Assembly: GCA_012838865.1 (NCBI GenBank)
Contig: DUOK01000122.1
Coordinates: 1 to 32,732 of the forward strand
Direction: 5' to 3'
Length of the DNA stretch: 32,732 nucleotides
Source of the DNA: Bacteroidales bacterium
Lineage (GTDB): Bacteria > Bacteroidota > Bacteroidia > Bacteroidales > Marinilabiliaceae
Position numbers and translations under genes: made by a program. Below the pieces are notes generated by a model. It was not told where the DNA came from and made no database searches. It worked only from the letters and a program-made list of their open reading frames with translations. Below are positions 3,192 through 28,352 of this stretch, piece after piece. The first letter of the stretch is position 1. Each line of letters opens with the position of its first letter.

Positions 3192-3260
3192 AGGAAGTAA
3201 GTCGACATCTTCGCAATTTTTTGAATACTTAAAAATGCTTAAAGCACATAAACCTTTTGA

Positions 3261-3268
3261 CATCTTTG
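3261..3268 (+). promoter_or_regulatory. Possible -7 box for the TonB receptor gene
   Basis: CATCTTTG is one base from TAnnTTTG and lies 15 bases before the ATG at 3284. No TTTG is seen at the expected -33 position, so the call is weak. TTTGACATC (3256-3264) is shared with the region before the next gene (5720-5728). Confidence 0.25.
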
Positions 3269-3283
3269 GCAGTTTTATTGATT

Positions 3284-5644
3284 ATGCGCGCACTTATTCT
3301 GGTTTGGGGACTCCTTTTGTGGTCGTTAACGCTGGCGGGACAGTCCTACCACGTGGCGGGACTGGTACTTGACGAGCTGAATCAGCCTATGCCGGGCTGC
3401 TATGTACGCAGCAACGGAAGTGCTGCCGTGACCGACGTCAACGGCCGCTTCATTTTCAACCACCTGAGTAAGGAAGAACTGCATCTGGAAGTCTCCTTTC
3501 TGGGCTACCTGCCCTTCGACACGCTGCTGAGGGCAGATGGGCACCACCACCTGCGCATCAACCTTAAGCCCGATGCCGTTCAACTGGCCGAAGTGGAAGT
3601 GGAAGGCCGCCGCCTGCAAACCGCATCAAACCAAAGCCGCACCCTGGTTCAGACCCTGGAGCTGGACCGACAGCACAGCGGCACCCTGGTACGCACCCTC
3701 GACCGCCAGGTGGGTTTCAACAGCATGGACATTGGAGCCTCTGCCTCTAAGCCCGTTATTCGGGGCATGAGTTTTAACCGGGTGGTGGTGGTCAGCAACG
3801 GCGTGAAGCAGGAAGGCCAGCAATGGGGCGCCGATCACGGTCTGGAAATGGACCCCTTTTTAAGCGAGCAGGCCGAAATCATCAAAGGAGCCGCCTCCCT
3901 GGAATACGGCAGCGATGCCCTCGGGGGCATCCTGCAACTGACCAGCAACCGCATTCCCGCAAAGGGCCTCAGCGGAAAGCTGCAACTCTTGGGCAAAACG
4001 GTGAATGAAACCGGGGGAATCTCGGCCCTGCTCCAGGGCAGCGATGGCCGCTGGTTTTTTAAAGGCCGCGCTACCGCCCTGGACTATGGCGACTATCGGG
4101 TGCCGACCGATACGGTGGTTTACCTCACGCGCCAATTGCCCATTCACAAGGAACGTTTGAAAAACACGGCCGGGCGGGAAATGGACGGCTACCTCCAGTT
4201 GGGAAGGACCGGTGACCACTGGCGCAGCAGTGTGTCGCTCAGTCGGGTGGACCAAAAATCGGGCTTTTTTCCGGGCGCACATGGGGTGCCCGACGCCCAG
4301 CGCGTTGCCGACGACGGCAACACGCGCAACATCGACTTCCCCCATCAAGAGGTGCGTCACTGGAATGTGACTTCCAACACCCTGGTACAAACCCCGCATT
4401 CGGCCCTCTCCCTGGATGCCGGCTACCAACGCAACCACCGGCAGGAATGGTCGGAGTTTCACACGCATTACGGTACGCAGGAGGCACCGGACGAGCAGGC
4501 CAATCTGGAACTGGACTTTTTACTGGAGACCTGGAGTGCCAACGCAGGCTGGAACTTTCGTGTGACCCCCAAATATGCCTTTACCCTGGGCGGGCAATAC
4601 CAGTATCAGCAAAACCAATCGGCCGGCTACAGCTTTTTACTGCCGGAGTTTGAGCGCCAAAGCAGGGGCCTTTTTCTGAAACACGATTATAAGCTGGGAG
4701 AGCATTGGGTATTGAACGGGGGACTGCGTTACGACTGGGTGGATTTACAGACGGAGGGTTACTACGACCCGCTACTGTTTGCCTACCTTGTGGAGCGGGG
4801 GCAGACCAACGAGACGGCTGCGGCCTATGCGCAAAGGGCTGCCAACAGCAAACGAAACTTTGGCGCGCTTAGTTGGGCGGGGGGATTAAGTTACCGGCCT
4901 GTTGAGGGACTGAAACTGGCCCTGAATCTGGGAGAGAGCTTTCGTGCTCCCACACCCAACGAACTCACCACCAACGGGGTGCACCACGGGGCCTTTCGAC
5001 ATGAGCAAGGTTGGGGCGACCTTTCACCCGAACGGGGTTTTTACACCGATGTGCTGGTCGAATACCAACAGGAGGAGCGACGCCTCAGCCTCTCGCCCTA
5101 TCTCTACCATTTTTCCAACTACATTTTCCTGAATCCCTCCGGCACCTGGAGCCTCTTGCCGCATGCGGGGCAAGTGTACCGTTACACCGAAAGCGAGGCG
5201 GTGTTGACTGGTTTGGAGCTGCAGTACAGCGACCGCTATGGCGAACATTGGCAAGTGGAACTCAACGGAGAGTGGATCTACAATTATCAGCGGGGCGACA
5301 ATGCTTACCCCCTGCCCTTTTCGCCCCCGGCCAACCTCTTTGGGGAGTTGAGCTACCTGCACACCTTTTCGCCCAACCGCGAGCCCATACGCTGGAGCCT
5401 CAACACCAAGGCAGTGGCAGCACAAAACAGGGTGGCACGCAACGAAGCCACTACCCCCGGTTACCTCCTGCTGGGCGCCGCCATCGGTCTGCCCCTGCGC
5501 GCCGGTCGCTTGCCCATGGAGCTGAACATTCAGGTGCAAAACCTGCTCAACACCCGCTACTACAACCACCTGAGTTTTTACCGGCGACTCGAAATTCCTG
5601 AGCCGGGACGCAATGTCCAGGTGTTGCTCAACATCCCGTTTTAA
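3284..5644 (+). CDS. TonB-dependent outer-membrane receptor, probable metal importer (ZnuD-like)
   Basis: 786 residues from ATG 3284, chosen over an upstream TTG (3257) because MRALILVWGLLLWSLTLAGQ then forms a signal peptide. Order: signal; carboxypeptidase-regulatory-like beta domain (about 22-110, VAGLVLDELNQPMPG ... LPFDTLLRADG); plug domain (about 120-230, with PVIRGMSFNRVVVVSNGVKQ and EIIKGAASLEYGSDALGG); and a 22-strand-type barrel ending in Phe (VLLNIPF). The plug sequence RGMxxNRVxVxxNG with a following DH resembles ZnuD-type zinc receptors, and a surface-loop candidate holds His residues (EFHTHYG). Substrate choice (Zn, Cu, Fe or haem) is inferred. It is followed by a small Cys/His protein and a His-tipped lipoprotein, supporting a metal theme. 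Confidence 0.85.
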   Translation: MRALILVWGLLLWSLTLAGQSYHVAGLVLDELNQPMPGCYVRSNGSAAVTDVNGRFIFNHLSKEELHLEVSFLGYLPFDTLLRADGHHHLRINLKPDAVQLAEVEVEGRRLQTASNQSRTLVQTLELDRQHSGTLVRTLDRQVGFNSMDIGASASKPVIRGMSFNRVVVVSNGVKQEGQQWGADHGLEMDPFLSEQAEIIKGAASLEYGSDALGGILQLTSNRIPAKGLSGKLQLLGKTVNETGGISALLQGSDGRWFFKGRATALDYGDYRVPTDTVVYLTRQLPIHKERLKNTAGREMDGYLQLGRTGDHWRSSVSLSRVDQKSGFFPGAHGVPDAQRVADDGNTRNIDFPHQEVRHWNVTSNTLVQTPHSALSLDAGYQRNHRQEWSEFHTHYGTQEAPDEQANLELDFLLETWSANAGWNFRVTPKYAFTLGGQYQYQQNQSAGYSFLLPEFERQSRGLFLKHDYKLGEHWVLNGGLRYDWVDLQTEGYYDPLLFAYLVERGQTNETAAAYAQRAANSKRNFGALSWAGGLSYRPVEGLKLALNLGESFRAPTPNELTTNGVHHGAFRHEQGWGDLSPERGFYTDVLVEYQQEERRLSLSPYLYHFSNYIFLNPSGTWSLLPHAGQVYRYTESEAVLTGLELQYSDRYGEHWQVELNGEWIYNYQRGDNAYPLPFSPPANLFGELSYLHTFSPNREPIRWSLNTKAVAAQNRVARNEATTPGYLLLGAAIGLPLRAGRLPMELNIQVQNLLNTRYYNHLSFYRRLEIPEPGRNVQVLLNIPF

Positions 5645-18738: not shown

Positions 18739-21711
18739 ATGTCCATGAGAAGCTTACTGTTGATCATCAAGCTCCTGCTGTCCGCACCGCTCTTCGGTCA
18801 ATACTACCACGCGGGCAACAGTCCCGCCCGGCTGCGCTGGCAGCAAATAGAAACACCGGCGGCGCGACTCGTTTTTGAAAAGGGCTTTGCTCAGCAAGCT
18901 TTGCAACTGGCTGCTTTTATGGACAGTGTGGCACCCTTGGTGGGCGCCGGCATGCGACACCGCCCCCCTTCCATCGACCTTTTGCTGCACAACCATACGG
19001 CCTATGCCAACGGCTTTGTCACCTGGGCACCGCGCCGGTCCGAATGGTTCACCCTGCCGCCGCAGCAACTGCAACCCACTCCCTGGCTGCAACACCTGGC
19101 ACTGCACGAATACCGCCATGTGGTGCAAATCGACCAACTGAACCGTGGTTTTACCAAAGGCCTGTCGTGGCTGCTGGGCCAGCAGGCAGTGGGCGGCGTG
19201 CTGGGCGCCTACGTACCCATGTGGCTGCTGGAGGGAGATGCCATCCTGGCAGAAACCACCCTGAGTGAGAGCGGCAGAGGCCGCTCCCACGCCTTCAACG
19301 CCGAACTTAAGGCGCAGTTGCTCGAAAAAGGCCGCTATTCCTACGAAAAGGCCTATCTGGGCTCCTACCGGGATTATGTGCCCGACTACTACAAAATGGG
19401 CTACCTGATGGTAAGTAAGGGGCGCGAGTGGTGGGGACCGCCGGTATGGGAACAGACTTTGAAGTTTGTGGGGCGGCGCAGCTGGCATCCCAGGGCCTTT
19501 GAAAGGGGCTTGAAACGACAAACAGACATGGGCCAACGGGAGCTGTACCAAAAAACTTTCGACGATTGGACCAAACAGTGGAGGGCAGAAGCCGAGCATA
19601 TTCAACCGTCGTCCTTCCTGGCACTGCCTGTTGTGTCGGACGATTACCGCAACTACCGCTGGCCTGTGGCGGTGGACAGTCAACGAATTGTGGCAGAAGT
19701 GGAGGGTCCGGGACTGCGGCGACAAATACAAATCCTGAATGAGGTGGACGGCACGGCCAACACCCTGCTGTACCTGGGCTGGCGCGCCCAGGAAGCGCTG
19801 TCGGCCAATGAGCAGGGGGTGGTGTGGACCGAGTTGCGGCAGCACCCGCGTTGGGAGCAGGAGGTGTGGTCGGAGCTTTGGCATGCCTCCCTCGAGACGG
19901 GACAGCGTAGAAGGCTGAGCAGTAAAACCCGCTATTTTTCTCCCGCTCTGCATCCCGAAAAAGCAGAGGTGGCGGTAGTCGAAGCGCATACCGACCTGCG
20001 TTTTGCACTGGTGGTCCTCGATTTGGAAAGCGGCCGGGAACTGCAACGCTTTGCCGCTCCCGAGCATTGTCAGCTGCTTACACCCAGATGGAACGCAAAG
20101 GGAAACGGACTCCTGCTCTTCTTGCAAGGCCCAGAGGGACGGGCCCTGCATACCCTGAACCTCAACACAGGCCACTGGCAGCAAGTCCTGCCCTGGTCAC
20201 ACAAGGACTTCCGCAACCCGGTGCAGCAGGGCGACAGCATTTGGTTTACGGGTCCCGCCACCTACAACGACGAAATTTTCCTTTTATCAGGCGAAGATGC
20301 AGCGCCCAGGGTGGTGACCCAAACCGACTACGGGGCCGACTATGCCAACCCCACGCCGGAGCGGGGACTGCTTTACAGTCGCTACACTGCCCAGGGCTAC
20401 CGGGTGAGTCGCCATTTGCAGAACGCAGCAGAAACCAACACCGCAAATGCCTCCGCTATAGAAACAATGGCGCGACTGCTGACCGAACAGGAAAAACAAA
20501 TACAGGCTGAACTGCCGCCGGCCGACTCCACTTCGACAAAAGAATATACCCCGCGTCGCTACAGCAAATGGAATATCCTGCAGTTGCACAGCTGGGCACC
20601 GGCCTTTGTCGACCTCGAAGGCGGCGCCTTGTACACGGGCATCACCGCCTTCTCTCAAAACCTCTTGGGCACCACCTTTGTTTCAGCAGGCTACAACGCC
20701 AATCCTGCCCACACCCACGAACGCTTTCAGCTGCGCATCGACTACCGCGGTTTTTACCCCCTGCTGTCCCTTCGCTTTCAAAGCGGCTACCAGCCCTTTG
20801 AAGAACAGGGCTTCCTGAGTAACGAACAATACTTTTATTACATCAACAGCAAGGAGCGCGTAAATCAACGCAGTCTGAAAGCCGGAATAAGTCTGCCCCA
20901 CGACTTCAGTCGTGGCCCCTGGTCGCGCCACCTGCAGGCCTCCCTGCGTTTCAGTCTGCAGCAAAGGCAAAACCTCAACGTGCCCCTTACGCAATACCGA
21001 CTGGCAGGCAACGAACTGCTGCCTACCGGCATCACCCTGTATTACCGACAGGAACGCATCGATTTTAAGGGCTTGAATTACACCCTTAGCCTGCGCAACA
21101 TCCGGCGTGGCAGCAGTCGCGATGCAGCCACCCGAATGGGACAGGCTGTCTCCCTCTTCTACCGGCATGCCGCCATGGGAAGTACCGACAATGGAAGTAT
21201 TGGGGGTTTAATGTCGCGTGTTTACCTGCCGGGACCAGGAAAGCACGATGCACTGTACCTCAGTGCAGATTTCCAAAAAAGAACCTGGGGAGAACCGGTG
21301 GCCAACAATGAGGGCCTCCGTTACCGGCAAAGCAATGTCATCAATTACCCCCGCGGCTATGATTTTGTACCCAACGATAAAATGTGGTTACTGAGCGCCA
21401 ACTACCAGTTTCCCTTATGGCTGCCAGATGTCCGCCTGGGCAAATTGGCCTACATCAAACGCCTCAGGATGAATATGTTTTACGACCAGAGCTTCAGTAC
21501 ATATGAACAGCAACTACAGCCATTTTCAATCAATGTGCAACATCACCTTCGACCGGCATCGACAGGCCTCGAATTGTTTGCAGACACCCACCTGCTGCGC
21601 TTCATCAGCCCTTTCAGCATCGGAGGCCGGGCAGGCTGCACCAGCGAAGGCGACTTTTTTGGCGGCTTCATCTTCAGCAGTGCACTGAGTGGCTTTTTGG
21701 TTAACCAGTAA
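18739..21711 (+). CDS. Exported HExxH metallopeptidase-like, beta-propeller and outer-membrane beta-barrel protein
   Basis: 990 residues. ATG 18739 or an ATG two codons later both give a signal peptide (MRSLLLIIKLLLSAPLFGQ). Residues about 25-280: a peptidase MA-like domain with HEYRH (123-127), an exact HExxH zinc motif, and EGDAILAE with Glu165 38 residues after the motif as the likely third ligand. Residues about 290-560: a TolB-like propeller with repeated strands (YRWPVAVDSQRIVAE, TRYFSPALHPEKAEVAVVEA, LLTPRWNAKGNGLLLF). Residues about 610-990: amphipathic strands of an Omp85-like barrel (SKWNILQLHSWAPAFVDLEG, GTTFVSAGYNANP, LLSANYQFPLW). Such three-part proteins occur in Bacteroidota without a known role; a barrel-anchored protease is inferred. 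The C-terminus (GFLVNQ) lacks the usual final aromatic residue. Confidence 0.75.
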   Translation: MSMRSLLLIIKLLLSAPLFGQYYHAGNSPARLRWQQIETPAARLVFEKGFAQQALQLAAFMDSVAPLVGAGMRHRPPSIDLLLHNHTAYANGFVTWAPRRSEWFTLPPQQLQPTPWLQHLALHEYRHVVQIDQLNRGFTKGLSWLLGQQAVGGVLGAYVPMWLLEGDAILAETTLSESGRGRSHAFNAELKAQLLEKGRYSYEKAYLGSYRDYVPDYYKMGYLMVSKGREWWGPPVWEQTLKFVGRRSWHPRAFERGLKRQTDMGQRELYQKTFDDWTKQWRAEAEHIQPSSFLALPVVSDDYRNYRWPVAVDSQRIVAEVEGPGLRRQIQILNEVDGTANTLLYLGWRAQEALSANEQGVVWTELRQHPRWEQEVWSELWHASLETGQRRRLSSKTRYFSPALHPEKAEVAVVEAHTDLRFALVVLDLESGRELQRFAAPEHCQLLTPRWNAKGNGLLLFLQGPEGRALHTLNLNTGHWQQVLPWSHKDFRNPVQQGDSIWFTGPATYNDEIFLLSGEDAAPRVVTQTDYGADYANPTPERGLLYSRYTAQGYRVSRHLQNAAETNTANASAIETMARLLTEQEKQIQAELPPADSTSTKEYTPRRYSKWNILQLHSWAPAFVDLEGGALYTGITAFSQNLLGTTFVSAGYNANPAHTHERFQLRIDYRGFYPLLSLRFQSGYQPFEEQGFLSNEQYFYYINSKERVNQRSLKAGISLPHDFSRGPWSRHLQASLRFSLQQRQNLNVPLTQYRLAGNELLPTGITLYYRQERIDFKGLNYTLSLRNIRRGSSRDAATRMGQAVSLFYRHAAMGSTDNGSIGGLMSRVYLPGPGKHDALYLSADFQKRTWGEPVANNEGLRYRQSNVINYPRGYDFVPNDKMWLLSANYQFPLWLPDVRLGKLAYIKRLRMNMFYDQSFSTYEQQLQPFSINVQHHLRPASTGLELFADTHLLRFISPFSIGGRAGCTSEGDFFGGFIFSSALSGFLVNQ

Positions 21712-25677: not shown

Positions 25678-26907
25678 TTATTTTGAGTAATTCAAAAGTC
25701 TCTGCTCGCCCTCCAGGGCCCGCAACTTGGTCAAATCCTGGGTAAACTCAACCGTGCCCAGGTATTCCCCTTCGGATCCGCGCATGGCAAAATATTCGAT
25801 GTAAATAAAACGCCCCTGAAACTGAATCCAAAATGCAGCACTGCTTTCCTTCCCGCTTTTAAAGTCCTCAATAATCTGATCCACAATATGCACACTACCG
25901 GGTGGGTGACACATACGTACATCACGTCCCAAAATAGCACGGTTGCGGGCAAAAATGCGCTTGGGACCGTGGGAAAAGAATTTCACCTTATCGTCCTTGT
26001 CCACAAAGGTGAGGTCGATGGGCAGGGTGGAAAACAAGGAAGATAACTCATCCATATTAAAGGCGCCGGTCGGGAGGCGCACATTGCCTCCGACGCCATA
26101 TTCCACCTGCGAAGCACTGGCTCCCTCGGGTCGCCACTCTACCTGCGGATCGACCAGACAAAAACCGTATTCCGGTGTTTGCTGATGCACCTGCATCCAC
26201 TCCTCCTCAGTCAGGGTGTCCATGCTCATAGGCAGCAAAATCTCCTCCTCTTTCATGATCATATCCAAAACCGACTGAACGGCTGGCTTCACCGCGCCTT
26301 CTACCACCAGGGGCAACTCATCCAGCTGCAGCGTGTCGTGCTGACTCACCGCGGCTATGGCGGCTTTTAAATAACTGCGCGTTTCGTCGTGTTTGCCCCA
26401 CATCACTTTGGGGGGACCGGTAATGCCGTGGGCTTCCATGAAGGGAAACAGCAGGTACTCTTTCTTCAAATAGTGCTTGTCCACATCCATCAGCGCATTG
26501 AGTTTGCCGTGCAGGGCAATTAACCACTTGGGCACCTCATCCTGCTGCAGACCCGAGCGTTGCTTCAACAAATCCGCGACTTCCTCAGCAACTGCCTCCA
26601 GGGCTCTGTTTTCCTGCTTCAAGACATCCACAGGGTGCCCCTCGGGCACCGGTGCGGCGCCGCTTTGGTCGATATGCCCATCCAAGACCTGGGTGTGGAC
26701 ATCACAGAGCTTGAGGACTTCCTCCACCGGAAGTCCCTCCGATATCAGCTCTTGTTCCACTTCCACCACATCGTCGTAGGGAATGTATTGCAACAGATCG
26801 ACCAAGCGCTGCTTGACCTGCTCGGGGGCCTGACCGCGGTGCAATTCCAAAATCATGTGCTTAAGAATTTCCTTGCGCTTCTCCGAATTGTTGATGAGCT
26901 CACTCAT
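25678..26907 (-). CDS. DUF438-hemerythrin-PAS protein, paralogue A
   Basis: 409 residues, cytoplasmic. Order: DUF438 domain (about 8-80) with its conserved LCDVH (67-71); GHPVDVLKQEN (His91); hemerythrin-like four-helix domain (about 95-235) with candidate di-iron ligands His133, His145, Glu150, His173 and Glu220-222; and a PAS domain (about 290-395) beginning LPIDLTFVDKDDKVKFFS and containing CHPPGSVH (Cys333-His334). Proteins with this build are thought to sense or handle O2, NO or iron, but no precise function is established. There is no kinase or DNA-binding domain, so output is probably by protein contact. It faces paralogue B (27129-28352) across a 221-base control region. Confidence 0.88.
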   Translation of the reverse strand: MSELINNSEKRKEILKHMILELHRGQAPEQVKQRLVDLLQYIPYDDVVEVEQELISEGLPVEEVLKLCDVHTQVLDGHIDQSGAAPVPEGHPVDVLKQENRALEAVAEEVADLLKQRSGLQQDEVPKWLIALHGKLNALMDVDKHYLKKEYLLFPFMEAHGITGPPKVMWGKHDETRSYLKAAIAAVSQHDTLQLDELPLVVEGAVKPAVQSVLDMIMKEEEILLPMSMDTLTEEEWMQVHQQTPEYGFCLVDPQVEWRPEGASASQVEYGVGGNVRLPTGAFNMDELSSLFSTLPIDLTFVDKDDKVKFFSHGPKRIFARNRAILGRDVRMCHPPGSVHIVDQIIEDFKSGKESSAAFWIQFQGRFIYIEYFAMRGSEGEYLGTVEFTQDLTKLRALEGEQRLLNYSK

Positions 26908-27128: not shown

Positions 27129-28352
27129 ATGTCCGAATTAATCAACCAGCCTGAGCAGCGCCTGAAACAGTTGCTGGACTTTTGCCGAAGACTTATTGCA
27201 GGTGAAAACGGGAACGAGCTTTACCAGCACTACCGCCCGATAACAGACCGGGTTACAGCCACTGAAACCATGGAGGTGCTGGATCTGCTTCTTCGCGAGG
27301 GAATGCCGGTGGCTACGCTCAAAGCCTGGGTGCCAAAAATCCTGAATGTATTTCACCGTTCGCTCAAGGCAGGGGAATGGGAAAAGCCCGGCGAAGGGCA
27401 TTTTCTGTACTACCTGATGCAGGAAAATAGAAAAGCGGAGGCGCTTATGCAGAAAATAAAAGGCTGGTCGCGACAAGTCTTTCCCGACCTGCAAGCCACT
27501 CATCTCAAAGCCCTTAAAAACAGTCTCCACGAACTACGTGCCTACGAAAGCCATTACATCAAAAAAGAAAATATCCTTTTCCCCTATCTGGAGCAGGCCT
27601 TTCCGGGGCACCGTTGCCTGTCGGTCATGTGGTCCTTCCACGACGACTTCCGTAACAGCCTGAAGGTACTGGATGAGCTGCTCAGTCGCGACAAACCCGA
27701 TGCACGCCTGCTCAGCCGCGAACTGGGACGCCTCTTTTTTGTGGTGTTGCCCCTTATTTTCAGGGAAGAACAAATCGTCTTCCCGGTTGCGCTCAGGGCC
27801 ATCCCTGAGCGCCTCTGGCAAGAAATGCTGAATCAAAGTGCCGAGGTGGGCTGGTGCTACATTCCGGAACCAGATCTTCAGGCCGGCGCTGCAGAACGAC
27901 CAACATCCGCATCCTCCCTGCCGCAGGCCGGCCGCGCCCCTTCTAAGGTTATCGACCTCGAAACGGGTGTACTGTTGCCCGAGCAAATCAAATGGTTGCT
28001 GAACACCCTGCCGGTAGATGTCACCTTCATCGACGAAAACGATGAGGTGCGCTACTTCTCGGGAGGCGAACACCGTATTTTTCACCGGGCCAAGGCCATC
28101 ATCGGCCGAAAAGTTCAAAACTGCCACCCACCGGAAAGTGTGCACATGGTCGAGGAAATTGTAAACGCCTTTAAAAACGGGAGTCGCGACCATGCCGATT
28201 TTTGGATCAGCATGAAAGAACGCTTCATCCACATTCGCTACTTTGCCGTTCGCGACGAAGAAAAGCAATACAAAGGCACCCTGGAAGTCAGCCAGGATGT
28301 TACGGAAATTCGTGCCCTGGAAGGCCAGCGTCGACTGCTCGAATGGGAATAA
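27129..28352 (+). CDS. DUF438-hemerythrin-PAS protein, paralogue B
   Basis: 407 residues, sharing layout, length and the MSELIN start with paralogue A. The hemerythrin domain keeps candidate ligands His134 and His142, Glu147 (SHYIKKEN), His171 (MWSFHDDF) and Glu213-214 (REEQIVFP). The PAS domain (about 290-395: LPVDVTFIDENDEVRYFSGG) keeps CHPPESVH (Cys332-His333) and the end VTEIRALEGQRRLLEWE. The DUF438 part is diverged: the LCDVH motif of paralogue A is replaced by WVPKI at the same position, and GHP is changed to GHF. The linker before the PAS domain is rich in Ala, Ser and Pro. It probably arose by duplication followed by change in the N-terminal domain. Its stop is 6 bases from the convergent kinase gene. 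Confidence 0.87.
   Translation: MSELINQPEQRLKQLLDFCRRLIAGENGNELYQHYRPITDRVTATETMEVLDLLLREGMPVATLKAWVPKILNVFHRSLKAGEWEKPGEGHFLYYLMQENRKAEALMQKIKGWSRQVFPDLQATHLKALKNSLHELRAYESHYIKKENILFPYLEQAFPGHRCLSVMWSFHDDFRNSLKVLDELLSRDKPDARLLSRELGRLFFVVLPLIFREEQIVFPVALRAIPERLWQEMLNQSAEVGWCYIPEPDLQAGAAERPTSASSLPQAGRAPSKVIDLETGVLLPEQIKWLLNTLPVDVTFIDENDEVRYFSGGEHRIFHRAKAIIGRKVQNCHPPESVHMVEEIVNAFKNGSRDHADFWISMKERFIHIRYFAVRDEEKQYKGTLEVSQDVTEIRALEGQRRLLEWE

Follow-up and report, generated by a model that had tools for sequence, protein, structure and literature searches.

A single open reading frame in the stretch of DNA analysed here (the window, one whole contig of 32,732 nucleotides) encodes a protein of 990 amino acids, in whose single chain a conserved zinc-peptidase signature is followed by a TolB-like β-propeller and an Omp85-like β-barrel. 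This three-part composition, first noticed in a preliminary description of the DNA, is confirmed by the present analysis, and the interpretation offered with it is partly supported. The favoured reading, to which a probability of about 0.55 is assigned, is that of a periplasmic zinc protease tethered to the outer membrane, which, much as BepA does, would oversee the quality of barrel or exported proteins or process them. A signal peptide would direct export to the periplasm, and the Omp85-type barrel, whose fold is predicted, would anchor the protein in the outer membrane. By analogy with Omp85 topology, the peptidase and the propeller would lie on the periplasmic side, where the propeller could bind a partner or substrate for the peptidase to cut near the membrane. 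The most likely task of such an enzyme would be the quality control or processing of outer-membrane and exported proteins, as performed by BepA in E. coli, here with protease, platform and anchor united in a single chain.

The reading frame (18739-21711, forward strand) begins with an ATG start codon and its product is arranged, from the N- to the C-terminus, as a signal peptide, an HExxH+E (gluzincin-type) domain, a TolB-like propeller and a barrel. The full-length AlphaFold2 model is confident (pLDDT 89.7, pTM 0.88). Sequence databases are far less informative for the query on its own, as Pfam returned no family up to an E-value of 10, NCBIfam gave a weak TolB propeller match alone (E 0.038) and a search of the PDB with the single protein gave no match. 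The putative signal peptide (residues 1-20; 18739..18798, +) is a hydrophobic N-terminal stretch that is modelled, at low confidence, as a helix spanning residues 2-14. The mature protein probably starts at Gln21, which is conserved in 52 of 57 aligned proteins; this alignment comprises the query and 56 of 61 matches, duplicates (L001, L028 and L031) and two fragments from L025 having been dropped.

The metallopeptidase-like domain occupies residues 30-288 (18826..19602, +) and is supported by a profile-profile match and by model confidences of 88-97 per ten-residue block between residues 31 and 290. It contains the sole HExxH of the protein, HEYRH (residues 123-127; 19105..19119, +), on a helix spanning residues 116-133, and the presumed third zinc ligand, Glu165 (19231..19233, +), which lies 38 residues past His127 in the sequence WLLEGDA, on a helix spanning residues 161-175. 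An HExxH is by itself weak evidence, since 896 of 20000 shuffled versions of the protein contain one (8 combine it with an EGxA 25-75 residues downstream), and conservation is the real test. A lack of conservation of HExxH and Glu165 in homologues had been named in the preliminary description as an observation that would overturn its proposal, and this was not what the homologues showed. Among 101 unique full-length proteins (open reading frames of at least 880 residues, the window's own counted), with domain identities to the query as low as 16%, His123, Glu124, His127 and Glu165 are jointly conserved in 100, that is, in 80 of the 81 nearer proteins (the window's among them) and in all 20 distant ones; Glu165 is present in all 101. 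It is proposed that His123, His127 and Glu165 coordinate zinc and that Glu124 acts as the base, an assignment for which this conservation argues. A predicted structure devoid of a zinc site had also been named as contrary evidence, and the model bears on part of this check: strand 99-104, the motif helix and the Glu165 helix follow one another in the gluzincin order, placing the putative ligands on helices in the right succession. The gluzincin-type combination, an HExxH with a downstream glutamate ligand on a later helix, is thus found in the predicted protein.

The lone exception to the four-residue conservation is one member of a tandem pair of this family (L049; G044:C2:124500-133000), whose copies are 35% identical. 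This member has no HExxH, although the later glutamate is kept, and is likely to be a pseudoprotease, whilst the other copy is intact. A non-catalytic copy therefore exists, which lends some substance to the idea that the peptidase domain binds its targets and does not cut. For the protein described here this appears extremely improbable, given that the ligands and the base persist in 100 of 101 proteins, including every one of the 20 distant relatives. Two other approaches to the domain were set aside. When modelled alone from its single sequence, without an alignment, it reached a pLDDT of 37.2 and the model was discarded, and a comparison of the catalytic profile with the PDB gave collagenase G as its best match (E 0.45), the rest being weaker, and was not counted as evidence. 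The full-length structural comparison with VIA-align returned rows covering the propeller alone, so the absence of peptidase folds from it is uninformative.

Family models connect the domain to known peptidases by way of its relatives. The query falls under the curated cut-off of Peptidase_MA_2 (PF13485), no Pfam family being found on it, and so differs from the members of that family in having no match to the model, although it shares with them an HExxH followed by a downstream glutamate in an EGxA context. A search of the genome for Peptidase_MA_2 was uninformative, as its controls gave no signal either. Within a set of 45 catalytic domains, Pfam found Peptidase_MA_2 in 2 (best E 6.5e-12) and DUF2268, a predicted zinc protease, in 6; the NCBIfam HExxH models for flagellinolysin and MXAN_6640 matched 12 (best E 1.9e-8) and 8 (best E 0.0002) of the same 45, but the query matches neither. 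The most distant full-length set consists of 12 proteins, of which 10 were hand-picked among the family-profile matches, in frames measuring some 1030-1140 residues, and two come from loci L122 and L123. Each of the 10 contains HExxH and EGxA. Both Peptidase_MA_2 and PD40 were found in 12 of these 12 at E-values of up to 1; the best Peptidase_MA_2 match had an E-value of 2.3e-10, and the first of the proteins scored 30.6 bits against a cut-off of 32.4. When the peptidase profile of the query's family was compared with that of these Peptidase_MA_2-bearing relatives, the probability was 99.6 (E 1.7e-24), against at most 1.0 for controls with mismatched domains.

The propeller (residues 289-570; 19603..20448, +) is recognized by profile matches to TolB structures, with E-values from 1.3e-18 to 3.3e-12, and by the alignment of the model with TolB (1crz) in VIA-align (Z 22.7, rmsd 2.7, 235 aligned residues, 13% identity). 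The likeness to TolB is one of propeller fold; TolB itself is not known to carry a peptidase or a barrel. As TolB is the best solved match of the propeller, the protein might be pictured as a cell-wall- or Pal-linked envelope component, with the propeller docking onto lipoproteins of the Pal type while the enzyme domain trims wall-linked proteins. This picture is very unlikely, however, as the TolB match amounts to 13% identity with other propellers close behind, among them designed Pizza propellers (Z 20-21.5 in VIA-align) and eukaryotic ones, and as the query falls far short of the NCBIfam TolB equivalog TIGR02800 (12.9 against a cut-off of 343.15 bits). The near-equal scores of these other propellers mean that the domain says little about function.

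A linker (residues 571-613; 20449..20577, +), delimited by secondary structure, partly of lower confidence and containing a helix at residues 573-590, leads into the C-terminal barrel (residues 614-983; 20578..21687, +). The strands of the model extend from about residue 634 to residue 981, mostly at high confidence, and DSSP divides residues 634-981 into 17 long segments when 931-952 is counted as one strand, the Omp85 barrel fold having 16 strands. Among the best 50 Foldseek rows, the outer-membrane barrels number 8, namely seven A chains of BAM complexes, which we take to be BamA, and one TamA; no other kind of outer-membrane barrel occurs in these rows, and the whole-chain TM-scores of the eight are 0.24-0.32. 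The sequence PRGY (residues 871-874; 21349..21360, +) is followed by five strands, as in BamA, and stands at the position of the Omp85 loop-6 RGF/Y motif. It is well kept in the 57-protein alignment (P in 52, R in 50, G in 54) and among the 81 nearer proteins (R in 66, G in 76), and it fades in the 20 distant ones (R in 3, G in 11).

The sequence relationship of the barrel to Omp85 proteins is indirect. The Omp85 family PF01103 was found neither on the query nor on any of 32 barrels or 20 distant proteins, and was absent from the best 25 of 28 families obtained for 43 members; it appears in 1 of the 12 most distant proteins (E 6.2e-8). The barrel profile had no match in the PDB, and its direct comparison with BamA and TamL of the same group gave probabilities of 1.0 and 0.8, against 6.3 for a TonB control. 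Direct sequence homology to Omp85 is not claimed, because these matches are non-significant and lie below the control. A bridge in two steps gave stronger values, the barrel of the query's family matching those of the most distant relatives (probability 92.3, E 5.5e-7), and the latter matching BamA (77.8), TamL (89.6) and a group of Omp85 proteins of 620 residues (83.6), with TonB at 0.8. Barrels of middle distance reached 53.9 against the most distant ones and stayed low against BamA (7.5), TamL (1.7), the 620-residue Omp85 group (0.4) and TonB (0.8). The barrel is accordingly best described as Omp85-like, by its predicted fold and indirectly by sequence, and not as a proven Omp85 protein.

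A propeller joined to a barrel of this kind has a precedent. Heinz and Lithgow (2014) described Omp85 subfamilies without POTRA domains and named one of them WD40-Omp85, likening it to a fusion of BamA with BamB (PMC4104836). In the terms of that description, the protein reported here is alike in having a TolB-like propeller ahead of an Omp85-type barrel (here Omp85-like) and no POTRA, but differs in the gluzincin-type domain that precedes the propeller; the section describing the subfamily mentions no peptidase, and the word 'peptidase' is absent from the main text of the paper. Together with the BAM-complex chains and TamA as best barrel matches in Foldseek, the comparison with BamA and BamB would allow the protein to be an assembly factor whose barrel and propeller work as BamA does with BamB, the peptidase regulating the process or clearing stalled substrates. 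We regard this as unlikely. No POTRA family was found on the query, where peptidase, propeller and linker fill residues 30-613, the barrel is distant from BamA in sequence, and the genome holds seven other matches to PF01103. In addition, the main text of the paper on the F. johnsoniae BAM complex uses the word 'protease' twice but makes no mention of a peptidase, a propeller or TolB (PMC12611786).

The same survey of Omp85 subfamilies contains a Metallo group that is called a metalloprotease yet is tied to PF00149, which in Pfam is a calcineurin-like phosphoesterase (PMC4104836). True fusions of a peptidase to an Omp85-type barrel may instead sit in the WD40 group. In the window itself, a second Omp85-type protein is encoded by a reading frame of 448 amino acids at 1093-2439 on the reverse strand (PF01103, E 1.7e-11), near a frame for a TonB-receptor barrel (3257-5644).

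The end of the barrel bears on how the protein would be inserted. The preliminary description found no aromatic assembly signal at the C-terminus, and this was not borne out as stated: a last strand is present at residues 973-981, with a terminal hydrophobic position at Leu983 (21655..21687, +, for strand and position together), and is followed by a tail of 7 residues (984-990; 21688..21708, +) with a pLDDT below 50. The strand aligns with the C-terminal strand of relatives in an alignment of 82 rows, in which the window's protein is counted twice. The final strand position is occupied by F in 38 rows, L in 23, I in 15, V in 2, A in 2, R in 1 and Y in 1, and the number of residues beyond the last strand is 0 in 24 rows, 1 in 17, 3-4 in 11 and 6-10 in 30. 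The end strand is thus displaced by a short tail, and its last residue is a leucine in place of the frequent phenylalanine; the question of the missing signal is mostly resolved by the tail, and insertion by the usual route is plausible.

The suggestion that the enzyme acts at the cell surface fared less well. Passage of the N-terminal domains to the cell exterior by way of the barrel, for the processing of secreted or surface proteins, has parallels in a role formerly proposed for PlpD and in one of the options considered for enzyme-Omp85 fusions (PMC4104836). However, the authors of a later study of PlpD conclude that its enzyme domain remains periplasmic (PMC11116518), and Omp85 topology would place the peptidase there too, which leaves surface placement unsupported. 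Furthermore, a folded propeller and peptidase, together about 540 residues, would need to pass through the barrel, and at the C-terminus there is a barrel strand with a short tail. A surface protease is hence distinctly unlikely. PlpD resembles the present protein in that an enzyme domain is fused ahead of an Omp85 barrel, but differs in having a lipase-type enzyme and a POTRA where a metallopeptidase-like domain and a propeller are found here (PMC11116518).

For the favoured reading, a periplasmic protease held at the outer membrane, the closest functional comparison is BepA, which has a TPR part. BepA is described as a periplasmic zinc peptidase that promotes the assembly of a barrel protein at the BAM complex or degrades it (PMC8423444). 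The likeness is one of working only, that of a periplasmic zinc metallopeptidase acting on outer-membrane barrel proteins, since BepA is a member of the M48 family with no barrel attached. PF01435 was not found on the query; there are three M48 matches at other places in the genome.

The gene stands alone. Its upstream neighbours, all on the reverse strand, encode an alpha-amylase, NA37, an RsmF-type methyltransferase and TrkH; the downstream side holds a metallophosphoesterase (reverse strand), followed by a histidine kinase with a LytTR regulator (forward strand). An operon was considered and dropped, because the gene is divergent from its upstream neighbour and convergent with its downstream one. 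In a comparison of 21 regions, most of those from the same family share these neighbours; L069, L075 and the five more distant regions lack them, except that L080 has a protein related to the large histidine kinase. The gene is a stand-alone gene without a conserved partner across these 21 regions, and any substrate is for this reason a guess. Elsewhere in the window, two adjacent genes (25678-26907, reverse strand, and 27129-28352, forward strand) encode proteins with hemerythrin and PAS domains, one of which also has a DUF438.

The window's genome is close to that of Geofilum rhodophaeum HF401, where the protein (L031) shows 92% identity over all 990 residues. Searches with the single sequence gave a match in 49 of 61 genomes of near relatives and in 24 of 198 genomes of a class sample, the window's own genome being included in both; with 174 of the 198 lacking such a match, the protein is not indispensable in the class. 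A family profile, with two candidates scored per genome, extended the search to the phylum and produced near full-length matches in 30 genomes (own included) at an E-value of 6.7e-165 or better, and in these 30 the three parts stay together. A second layer of matches to this profile, partly full length, follows at about 1e-40 to 1e-88. The family-profile count of 289 of 296 genomes is not used as a prevalence, because matches to the propeller alone inflate it. With a profile of the peptidase domain, 182 of 296 phylum genomes (own included) had a match at 1e-5 or better, the best match in 27 of the 182 being weaker than 1e-20; the open frames among the matches listed measure 933-1282 residues, with one of 706. 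A genome from the same genus (L025; G002:C166) shows the match to the gene broken into several pieces, with a TAG stop in a second, partial copy, which points to a pseudogene or an assembly error.

No title or abstract opening in the open-licence literature searched describes the combination of peptidase, propeller and barrel. The protein represents a variant of the WD40-Omp85 architecture already published, and its well-conserved peptidase-like domain was not found described. Pfam overlooks the query entirely. Relatives of like layout are widespread in the phylum. The outer membrane of Bacteroidota is built with machinery of its own, and its quality control constitutes a gap. A broader proposal, put forward tentatively and judged rather unlikely, is that these proteins form a phylum-wide set of unrecognised envelope machines, in which a protease, a substrate platform and an Omp85-type barrel are fused and outer-membrane proteins would be inspected and cut during their stay at the barrel; on this view the WD40-Omp85 proteins would be proteases and not platforms of the BamA-BamB kind. 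If the peptidase is active, a published subfamily of Omp85 would be recast.
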